Origin: Microlunatus flavus
GTDB taxonomy: Bacteria > Actinomycetota > Actinomycetes > Propionibacteriales > Propionibacteriaceae
Assembly (NCBI RefSeq): GCF_900110855.1
Contig: NZ_FOFA01000004.1
Span: 62,001 to 126,000, forward strand
Length of the DNA: 64,000 nucleotides
Reading direction: 5' to 3'
Position numbers and translations under genes: made by a program. This document shows positions 60,853 through 64,000 of this stretch, one piece after another (position 1 is the stretch's first letter; the number at the start of each line of letters is the position of its first letter). The notes beneath the pieces are model-generated. The model had not been told where the DNA came from. It ran no database searches and saw nothing but the letters and a program-made list of their open reading frames with translations.

Positions 60853-61812
60853 CTACTCGCGCCCGAGGTCGCGGTGCAGGACCGTGGTCGGCAGGCCGTC
60901 GGCCCGCAGCCGGCGGGCCAGCTCCTCCGAGATCGCCGTGCTGCGGTGCTTGCCGCCGGTGCACCCGATGCCGATGGTCGCGAAGCGCTTGCCCTCGTGC
61001 AGGTAGCCGGACGCCACCGTGGTGAGCACGGACTCGAGCGAGGTCAGGAACGGCTCGGCCCCCGGCTGGCTGAGCACGTACGCGCTGACCGGCGCGCTCA
61101 GGCCCGTCTGCGGGCGCAGCTCGGGCACCCAGTGCGGGTTGGGCAGGAAGCGGACGTCGAAGATCATGTCGGCGTCGAGCGGGATCCCGTTCTTGAAGCC
61201 GAAGGACAGCACCGTCACCCGCAGCGCGTGGTCGGGCCCGCCGTACGCGTGCGTGATCCGCGAGCCCAGCTGGTGCACGTTCAGCGAGGAGGTGTCGATG
61301 ACCAGGTCGGCGGCGGCGCGCAGCGTGGCGAGCAGCTCCCGCTCGCGGTGGATGCCGTCGAGCAGCCGGCCGTCGCCCTGCAGCGGGTGGGGCCGGCGGA
61401 CCGACTCCTGGCGCCGGACGATGACGTCGTCGGAGGCTTCGACGTAGACGATCTCGGGGACCGTCCCGGACTCCTTCAGCTCGGCGAACATCGCCGGCAG
61501 CTGCTCGAAGAAGGAGCGCGTCCGCACGTCGAGCACCACGGCCAGCTGCCGGATGCCCGTACGCCGGGCCTCGTCGCAGACGTCGGGCAGCACGCTGGGC
61601 GGGAGGTTGTCGACGACGTACCAGCCGAGGTCCTCGAGGTTGTCCGCGGTCGTGGACCGGCCCGCGCCCGACATCCCGCTCACCACGACGAGCCGCAGCG
61701 GCCGCTCCTCGGCGCTCGGGGCCGCGCTGGCCGGGCGGACCGGCTCGGGGACGCTGGTCGCCGCCTCGGCGGCGATGGGCGGCGTGGGGGGTGTCGCCGT
61801 CTCGGTGCTCAC
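60853..61812 (-). CDS. rapZ: RNase adapter protein RapZ
   Basis: 319 residues. A P-loop ATPase-like protein. Walker A is SGMSGAGRST, where the usual Lys is Arg as in many actinobacteria. DLGWYVVDNLPPSVLPD, VTVLSFGFKNGIPLDADM and GCTGGKHRS are conserved. An N-terminal Thr/Pro/Ala-rich arm of about 35 residues precedes the core. I chose GTG 61812 because GATAAT lies 7 nt before it; ATG 61821 is the alternative. In actinobacteria its RNA or other target is not well known. Confidence 0.92.
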   Translation of the reverse strand: MSTETATPPTPPIAAEAATSVPEPVRPASAAPSAEERPLRLVVVSGMSGAGRSTTADNLEDLGWYVVDNLPPSVLPDVCDEARRTGIRQLAVVLDVRTRSFFEQLPAMFAELKESGTVPEIVYVEASDDVIVRRQESVRRPHPLQGDGRLLDGIHRERELLATLRAAADLVIDTSSLNVHQLGSRITHAYGGPDHALRVTVLSFGFKNGIPLDADMIFDVRFLPNPHWVPELRPQTGLSAPVSAYVLSQPGAEPFLTSLESVLTTVASGYLHEGKRFATIGIGCTGGKHRSTAISEELARRLRADGLPTTVLHRDLGRE

Positions 61813-61819
61813 GCCAGCC

Positions 61820-61825
61820 ATTATC
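61820..61825 (-). promoter_or_regulatory. -10-like hexamer GATAAT before rapZ
   Basis: On the minus strand GATAAT precedes GTG 61812 by 7 nt. It is close to TATAAT, and no ribosome site is visible, so the transcript may be leaderless. Confidence 0.45.
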
Positions 61826-62085
61826 CGCGCCCGCCCCGCTCCACGCAGGACTCCCGCACCGGGGAACGCGAGGTTCCGCGGCGCCCACGGCTGCCGAGTG
61901 AAGGCGGCGCCGGGAGGTGGAGCGGGTCGAGTGGCAGGCGAAGCGCGCGCGGGAACGTGACCACGACGGTGCCGCGGGGGCTCATCCGAGCCCGCGCTCG
62001 TCGTCCGCCCGGCCGGCGACGCGGTCGGCACCCACCGGGAGTGCGGTCGAGCGGACCTGGGCAGGCAGCCGGTGACCGTGAACGT

Positions 62086-62211
62086 GGACCTCCGGACGAG
62101 GTCGCTGGACGTGGATGGGCCTGACGGGAGCACGGGCGCGGCCGCTCACGAGCCCGAGCGTCGATCACGCGCCCGTGCGGATGGTTGTCCGGCGCCCTCG
62201 TCCGGAGGTCC
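62086..62211 (-). repeat. Nested inverted repeat able to form a long hairpin
   Basis: GGACCTCCGGACGAGG (62086-62101) and its exact complement (62196-62211) flank a second pair, 62103-62110 with 62187-62194 (8 bp, one wobble), a third, GCACGGGCGCG (62130-62140) with 62168-62178 (11 bp), and a 5-bp pair (62143-62147 with 62156-62160). All are nested, so one RNA of 126 nt could be paired over most of its length. It starts about 33 nt after the uvrC stop on the minus strand. Confidence 0.6.
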
Positions 62212-62243
62212 GCCGGCAGCTGGTTCGAGGGGACAGACCTCGA

Positions 62244-64000
62244 CTAGCGGTCGACCAGCACCTCACCCGTGGCCATGTCGATCGCGTCGCCGGCCGGGCG
62301 GGCCTCGAGCGCGGCGAGGACCGCTTGCGCGGTCTTGAGGCCGAACCCCGGCACCGCAGCGATCTCCTCGACGCTGGCGGCGCGGAGCTTCTTCAGCGAC
62401 CCGAAGTGGTGCAGCAGCGCCTTGCGGCGCACCTCCCCCAGCCCGGGCACCTGGTCGAGCACGGACTCGACCATGCTCTTGCTGCGCCGCCCGCGGTGGT
62501 GGGTGATGGCGAAGCGGTGCGCCTCGTCGCGGACGCGCTGGAGCAGGTAGAGGCCCTCGCTGGTCCGCGGCAGGATCACGGGGTCCTCGACGTCGGGGAG
62601 CCAGACCTCCTCGAGACGCTTGGCCAGGCCGCACAGCGCCACGTCGTCGATGCCCAGCTCGTCCATGGCGGCGGCCGCCGCGGCGACCTGCGGCGGCCCG
62701 CCGTCGACGACGACGAGCTGCGGGACGTACGCGAACCGGCGCGGGGCCCCGGTCTCGGGGTCGACGAGCAGCGGCCCCTCGCCGTTCGAGCCGTCGGAGG
62801 CGCCCAGCGCGGCCTTGCGGTCGTCGATCATCCGGCGGAACCGTCGGGTGATGACCTCGTGCATGGACGCGACGTCGTTCTGGCCGTCGACGCCGCGGAT
62901 GACGAAGCGGCGGTACTCGCTCTTGCGCGGCAGGCCGTCCTCGAAGACGACCATCGAGGCCACGACCTCGGTGCCCTGCAGGTTGGAGATGTCGAAGCAC
63001 TCGATGCGCAGCGGCGCGCCGGGCAGCTCGAGCGCCTCCTGGATCTCCTCGAGCGCGCGGTTGCGGGTCGACAGGTCGCTGGCGCGGGTCGTCTTGTGCC
63101 GGACGAGGGCCTCGTTGGCGTTCTTGGCCACCGTCTCCATCAGCGTCCGCTTGTCGCCGCGCTGCGGGACGCGGATGTCGACGTGCGAGCCGCGGCGCTC
63201 GGTGAGCAGCTGGGTGAGCGACTCCAGCGACGTCGGCAGCGCCGGGACGAGGATCTCGCGCGGCACGGCGTCGCGGGGGTCGGGCTCGTCGTCGCTCTCC
63301 GCGTAGAGCTGCAGGAGGAACTGCTCGACGAGCTCGGGCGTGCCCTCCTCGTCGAACCGGTCGGCCACCCAGCCGCGCTCGCCGCGGATGCGGCCGCCCC
63401 GGACGTGGAAGATCTGCACGGCGACCTCGAGCGGGTCCTCGGCCACGGCGATGACGTCGGCGTCGGTCCCGTCGGCGAACACGACCGCGTTGCGCTCGAG
63501 CGCGCGCTGCATGGCCTGCAGGTCGTCGCGCAGCCGGGCCGCCCGCTCGAAGTCGAGCTCGGCGCTGGCGGCCTTCATCTGCCGCTCGATCTGGCGGATC
63601 ATCGGCGTCGCCTGGCCCGCCATGAACTGGCAGAAGTCGTCGACGATGTCGCGGTGCTCCTCCGGGGTCACCTTGCCGACGCAGGGCGCGGAGCACTTGT
63701 CGATGTAGCCGAGCAGGCAGGGCCGGCCGAGCAGCTGGTGGTTGCGGAACACGCCGGGCCGGCACGAGCGCATCGGGAACACCCGCAGGAGCAGGTCGAC
63801 GGTCTCGCGGATCGCCCAGGCGTGGCTGTACGGGCCGAAGTAGCGGTTGCCCTTGCGCTTGGCCCCGCGCCCGACCATCACCCGCGGGAACTCCTCGGAC
63901 AGCGTCACCGCCATCCACGGGTACGACTTGTCGTCGCGGTACTTCACGTTGAAGCGCGGGTCGTACTCCTTGATCCAGGAGTACTCCAGCTGCAGCGACT
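62244..64000 (-). CDS. uvrC: Excinuclease ABC subunit C, 5' end outside the window
   Basis: 585 residues are visible and the frame stays open to the right edge, so the N-terminal part of the GIY-YIG nuclease domain is missing. YWYRD-type segment, then [36 protein letters not shown], the Cys-rich [15 protein letters not shown], the UVR motif ([25 protein letters not shown]), the RNase H-like domain ([22 protein letters not shown]) and C-terminal HhH repeats ([35 protein letters not shown]) are present. It makes the dual incision in nucleotide excision repair. Confidence 0.95.

Follow-up and report, generated by a model that had tools for sequence, protein, structure and literature searches.

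In the genome of Microlunatus flavus, the genes uvrC and rapZ are separated by a gap that contains a long nested hairpin. This locus raises the question of whether the hairpin is a structured RNA linked to RapZ, a mobile insertion, or an element with another role. The preliminary description of the locus had read it as a conserved structure, proposed a possible link to RapZ, and noted that a MITE-like insertion would fit as well. The window, i.e. the whole stretch of DNA analysed here, comprises 64,000 nucleotides of contig NZ_FOFA01000004.1 (forward strand, positions 62,001 to 126,000), and the coordinates given below refer to it.

The hairpin in the uvrC-rapZ gap

The gap extends over 431 nt (61813-62243), from the stop codon of uvrC at 62244 to the GTG start codon of rapZ at 61812, which is the length reported previously. 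Both genes are encoded on the minus strand. The left-hand gene is rapZ (60853-61812; NCBIfam RapZ, 337.2 bits), and the right-hand gene, with its stop facing the hairpin, is uvrC (62244-63947; NCBIfam UvrC, 895.9 bits), which is partly contained in the window. The GTG start of rapZ was placed by a GATAAT...GTG stretch, present in relatives too. At 61810-61825 on the minus strand, a GATAAT box is located 7 nt before this GTG and recurs in several relatives; the arrangement suggests that the rapZ mRNA may be leaderless, with its own promoter. A sigma-70-like promoter was not found in 61700-62400. An intrinsic terminator was rejected as a candidate, since no U-tract terminator was detected on either strand of the same interval.

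The four nested complementary segments described before are all present in the sequence. The outermost segment (62086-62101/62196-62211) comprises 16 bp, the second (62103-62110/62187-62194) comprises 8 bp including one G-U, the third (62130-62140/62168-62178) comprises 11 bp, and the innermost (62143-62147/62156-62160) comprises 5 bp. The predicted RNA fold of the plus strand reached -86 kcal/mol; 200 dinucleotide shuffles averaged -62.25 (sd 4.44), and none of them folded as well (z -5.35). For the minus strand the value was -80.5 (z -5.65 against shuffles). The inner part is paired differently in the minimum-energy fold of the plus strand, and the nested 11- and 5-bp stems are present in the centroid.

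The covariance model of the family described below assigns the whole element to 62076-62222 on the plus strand, with 124.2 bits (E 3.8e-26; cmsearch R1, model positions 1-148), and the model found no second convincing copy in the 64-kb window. The outer helix P1 is formed by a 5′ arm at 62086-62110, free in sequence and with pairing kept, and a 3′ arm at 62187-62211; U62102 is unpaired opposite C62195. The base of P1 reads GAACG in this copy (62080-62084), where most of the 32 aligned copies have GAAGG, and its 3′ partner CCGGC is located at 62213-62217. The conserved strand of the internal loop, CGTGGATGGGCCTGAC here and CGTGGAYGGGNCTGGC in the family consensus, occupies 62110-62125 and corresponds to invariant alignment columns. 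The second loop strand, TGGTTG, lies at 62182-62187, and the inner hairpin, an 11-bp stem with a variable tip, at 62130-62178. All these features are on the plus strand.

Copies in other actinobacterial genomes

The hairpin is a copy of a dispersed family found in some actinobacteria. Searching the M. flavus genome with the 126-nt stretch as BLAST query revealed 12 places at E <= 0.001, the last one short and weak, and the covariance model recovered 11 copies. In the related genomes G003, G015 and G004 the model found 15, 10 and 26 full copies, with one additional partial copy in G004. In these four genomes a short non-coding element is thus present in many dispersed copies, as in MITEs. The earlier remark that a MITE-like insertion would fit was right. 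Full-length matches span approximately 114-172 nt.

Fourteen of the 20 Microlunatus genomes carry the element according to the covariance model built from 32 copies, and BLAST matches were present in 11 of 57 genomes (M. flavus and relatives). At the family level, stricter filters left 8 of 97 genomes with the element. Its distribution is patchy, with 15 of the 293 genomes of the order positive and zero matches for a reversed control pattern. A pattern scan over the phylum detected only the M. flavus genome (1 of 396), using an exact core pattern that misses variants and recovers 7 of the 11 copies of M. flavus itself. The model search of the 396 phylum genomes, in which only nine candidates were scored for each genome, provides weak negative evidence.

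Actinomyces oris, Jatrophihabitans, Antribacter, Nocardioides and Marmoricola possess members recognised by core pattern and model, and so do records of Micropruina, Auraticoccus and Propionicicella. The core-pattern scan of records returned at least 114 stretches, some of which, for example in Nonomuraea and Bacteroidales records, have no outer helix and appear to be chance matches. Twenty-six loci judged to belong to Microlunatus or Propionicicella were skipped, and of the 89 other matches 45 were accepted by an ungapped P1 test; this test rejected several bulged true members (e.g. L197) and let through at least one chance match (L238). Rfam searches of the window (E <= 5) and of five other loci (E <= 1) returned nothing that overlaps the element, and the family is, as far as tested, absent from Rfam 15. 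Searches of open-access literature did not reveal a description of the element.

Pairing, internal loop and probable folding strand

Members of the family have a common layout, in which the outer helix P1 of about 28 bp, free in sequence, leads to a conserved internal loop and from there to an inner hairpin whose length varies among copies. The 5′ strand of the internal loop reads CGUGGAYGGGNCUGGC, and its 3′ strand UGGUUG. The loop contains four G-runs, and one may guess that it forms a two-tier G-quadruplex. At the base of P1, GAAGG faces CCGGC with tandem A-G mismatches, found at pair 29 in 24 of the 32 copies and at pair 30 in 21.

The covariation is very strong, and the fold is firmly established; the earlier reading of a conserved structure was correct. 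In the MAFFT alignment of 32 of the 34 copies (A1; own_C18a and own_C11 were excluded because they did not pass a strict core regex), 31 of the 40 consensus pairs have two-sided changes with pairing kept in at least one sequence. In the model-fitted alignment A4, with its 79 diverse rows, 94.4% of the cells are paired, compared with 56.4% in shuffled and 37-47% in slid controls, and all 24 outer-helix pairs show two-sided changes. An antisense match in L013 is included in A4 and lies outside the counts of 102 copies used below (102 of 103).

Nine loci of M. flavus and its nearest relative, G003, have flanks that align as orthologs, and these common flanks indicate vertical descent of the copies. 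Of their 234 outer pairs, 137 are the same in both genomes; 57 differ on both sides and 13 on one side, with pairing kept in each case, and 27 are unpaired in at least one genome. Across 12 ortholog pairs the loop strands are 94% and 98% identical. Identity is 62% in the arms, 62% in the right flank, and 72% and 80% in the left flank, in gapped alignments that flatter the flanks and with a left flank that is possibly coding in part. As the loop strands are conserved and the arms have diverged yet remain paired, what is kept is the pairing and the loop, not the sequence of the arms. We make no claim of unusually fast evolution of the arms, given 62% identity in the arms and 62-80% in the flanks.

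A strand that folds tolerates G-U pairs and does not tolerate A-C, so that an excess of G-T over A-C on one strand points to that strand. On the plus strand, ten ortholog groups gave 19 G-T against one A-C (p 4e-5), and 18 groups gave 33 against six. Recurrent mismatches in the 18 groups were A-G in 32 cases and T-C in three, i.e. purine-purine when read on the plus strand only. Among 102 copies, P1 was more stable as plus-strand RNA in 63 and as minus-strand RNA in 12, and the two were within 0.5 kcal/mol of each other in 27. From these comparisons the plus strand appears to be selected to fold. The bias holds in most species; G006, G018 and G066 show none or the reverse. It fits the folding of single-stranded DNA equally well, and does not tell RNA and DNA apart. 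Regarding a replication-strand bias, the element positions in G003 looked mixed by eye.

Gene context, origin and possible role

According to a crude codon-bias gene caller, the right neighbour is on the opposite strand with its stop facing the element in 81 of the 102 copies. In 59 copies, all among these 81, the facing stop is at most 41 nt from the model edge, and left neighbours are in the mirror situation within 41 nt in four. Facing stops within 41 nt were found for 9 of 11 copies in M. flavus, 11 of 15 in G003, 7 of 10 in G015, 14 of 26 in G004 and 6 of 8 in G009. They are rare in G002 (0 of 3), G006 (1 of 5), G018 (1 of 5) and G066 (0 of 6). Among the 21 exceptions to this polarity, two have a tRNA-Leu gene at a distance of 31 nt, with the same polarity as in the rule. 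Six copies (in L012, L045, L051 and L056, and both in L141) are located between divergent genes, where a role at gene ends does not fit.

The neighbours include dnaA, gnd, rpsN, tRNA-Leu and many other unrelated genes, and many of them are housekeeping genes. In G019 and G005 the element separates rpsN from rpsH (family assignment checked for the G019 pair), two genes that elsewhere are part of a ribosomal operon. Among the relatives examined, a copy adjacent to rapZ is present only in M. flavus, G003 and G015. At dnaA and its convergent neighbour there is one element for each gene, inverted and about 300-350 nt apart (L046, L010). Intergenic palindromes resembling CCCTTCGACAAGCTCAGGG occur near many elements (L010:7500-7700, L135-L142, L161-L168, L174-L176). 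Tandem boxes of the form GATCAG-n-CGCTCGG are found about 25-100 nt before many hairpins in L135-L154 (M. speluncae and M. parietis). A promoter left of the element was considered and rejected, as the tandem boxes are common to two relatives and were not seen in the copies of M. flavus.

In the three species with the element between uvrC and rapZ, the gap measures 346-420 nt to the first aligned rapZ codon. Without the element it is at most 71 nt in 18 of 26 relatives and 190-1043 nt in the other eight, where presence was defined by a strict regex, with which the covariance-model matches agree for the genus. Because uvrC and rapZ nearly abut in those 18 element-free relatives, the element probably arrived in this gap by insertion.

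Nocardioides silvaticus possesses near-identical copies; some of its loci were named by their sequence identity to G584. A block of about 600 bp is common to five copies, and a sixth (L214) has 340 bp of it. At polA the block begins right after the stop codon and takes up the 609 nt that separate polA from the convergent gene; the corresponding distance is -4 to 41 nt in six of eight relatives and 243-263 nt in two. The ends of the block are CGCTGCGC...GCGCAGCG in most copies viewed, and inspection by eye of the five copies for which both junctions could be viewed revealed no target duplication. This block (L256:2395-2990 and other loci) also contains a second large palindrome, and it ends near stop codons.

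The arms of the element are inverted, but their sequence differs between copies (32 aligned). G004 harbours eight inverted pairs of elements, about 300-940 nt apart, and in Propionicicella superfundia tandem half-elements flank a full copy (L187:1127-1590, L188:1091-1420). The left halves of these repeats measure 69 or 67 nt, and the right arms in L187 35-36 nt. An unrelated inverted repeat, GACCGCCAGGTTGT...ACAACCTGGCGGTC, is located near the element at L187:931-1102, with similar text near the L192 copy. Together, the short element-free gaps, the N. silvaticus block, the inverted pairs and the half-elements point to a mobile origin of the family.

Regarding the means of mobility, a RAYT/REP system was rejected, as a Y1 transposase (Y1_Tnp) was detected in none of 20 genus genomes and none of 15 other genomes, and the unit is not 20-40 nt long. 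Retro-mobility was rejected as well: the reverse transcriptase family RVT_1 is present in 12 of the 20 genus genomes but absent from M. flavus and G004, both of which are rich in copies. A candidate transposase remnant beside an N. silvaticus copy had no Pfam match.

The element resembles dispersed palindromic repeats of the ERIC/BOX kind, and differs from them in having a fixed loop flanked by arms of free sequence, in its polarity and in its hosts. ERIC is a 127-bp intergenic repeat with a reported orientation-dependent effect on upstream mRNA (PMC2229807; PMC10969869), and a review table lists 7-bp terminal repeats and target duplication for it (PMC2229807/PMC10969869). ERIC and YPAL of enterobacteria are also dispersed, MITE-like imperfect palindromes, in a different phylum; here, in contrast, the arm sequence is free, conservation is confined to the pairing and the internal loop, and orientation relative to the neighbour is mostly fixed. 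Pneumococcal BOX and SPRITE, compared by description, are structured repeats that are likewise dispersed; transcription of large BOX elements is reported, and the repeats were judged parasitic (PMC3049150). The main feature here, unlike in BOX/SPRITE, is compensatory drift copy by copy at orthologous sites. REPs, of 20-40 bp (PMC3733652), are likewise hairpins between genes and form inverted pairs. The unit described here is about 114-172 nt, in contrast to REP/RAYT, and the Y1 transposase was found in none of the 35 genomes searched. In integron attC sites, the folded strand is opposite to the gene that the site follows, and structure outweighs sequence. The element shares both traits, but it has many housekeeping neighbours, and its conserved part is the middle, not the base.

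Because the pairing has been kept through evolution on one strand, the element probably does something. The reading that we favour, tentatively and with rather less than even confidence, is a MITE-like, mobile-derived element whose plus strand was kept folded after insertion and acts as an RNA boundary hairpin. The computed results behind it are the family, the fold with its two-sided changes, the strand bias, the usual place behind ends of genes on the opposite strand, and the short uvrC-rapZ gap of most element-free relatives. From these we infer that the plus strand acts as RNA, through the following putative mechanism. Transcription would near the end of the neighbouring gene from outside, as convergent read-through or as divergent or antisense transcription, and would produce the long GC-rich hairpin of the plus strand. 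The conserved asymmetric loop would then be bound by a putative protein, or would form a compact core, perhaps a two-tier G-quadruplex, and the hairpin would halt or cap the RNA before an antisense run into the gene. A more specific version, which we regard as doubtful, would make the family a new class of structured RNA. Here a mobile hairpin, with a 12-nt bulge UGGAYGGGNCUG read by a putative dedicated factor, would be retained antisense at the ends of protein and tRNA genes as a transcriptional boundary (anti-antisense) element. Counted against the boundary hairpin are the lack of a sigma-70-like promoter and a U-tract terminator in 61700-62400, the six copies between divergent genes, the eight long element-free gaps among 26, the mostly farther facing stops in G002, G006, G018 and G066, and the absent or reversed strand bias in the last three of these genomes. 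The strand bias would also arise from folding as single-stranded DNA.

A purely selfish mobile element is a serious, if somewhat unlikely, alternative. The plus strand would fold as single-stranded DNA, or in an RNA intermediate, for mobility by a putative enzyme, prefer short gaps behind genes, and have no function for the host. Such an element would account for the patchy spread in the order, the near-identical N. silvaticus copies with their block in a polA gap that is short in six of eight relatives, the inverted pairs in G004 and the half-elements in Propionicicella. However, two-sided retention of pairing at fixed orthologous sites is needless for a dead insertion. The absence of the Y1 transposase from the 35 genomes, of a reverse transcriptase from M. 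flavus and G004, and of a visible target duplication at the five N. silvaticus copies also argues against it.

It is improbable that the minus strand is the working RNA, as a hairpin in the 3′-UTR of the mRNA of the right-hand gene (a terminator, a REP-like exonuclease barrier or an ERIC-like RNase site). This reading fits the location of copies a short way behind stop codons and, in two cases, behind tRNA-Leu genes, and it fits the dnaA locus, where dnaA and the convergent gene have one element each, but it fails the strand test: the bias favours the other strand (19:1), and the mismatches are purine-purine only on the plus strand. In addition, no U-tract was found in 61700-62400, and an unconditional terminator between rpsN and rpsH in G019 and G005 would cut the ribosomal operon.

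Neutral palindrome correction, in which the arms would stay complementary through template switching during replication and selection would play no part, is very improbable. The arms do drift at least as fast as neighbouring intergenic DNA while remaining paired; nevertheless, such correction should erase G-T and A-C alike, and with them the recurrent tandem A-G mismatches at fixed pairs, and it is at odds with the near-identity of the loop strands and with the strand bias across carriers, in most but not all species. A GlmZ-like small RNA gene tied to RapZ, the part of the preliminary description that did not stand, has adjacency to rapZ in three species in its favour and is rejected with hardly any reservation, because the same element is dispersed beside unrelated genes and has no Rfam match.

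The element belongs to a well-defined family that covaries strongly, has a conserved core and a probable folding strand, and offers many natural copies at comparable positions, so that its function is directly testable. If the boundary role is true, these actinobacteria would possess a dedicated device against antisense read-through. If it is false, the family would be a clear example of a mobile element in which the fold of each individual copy is preserved.
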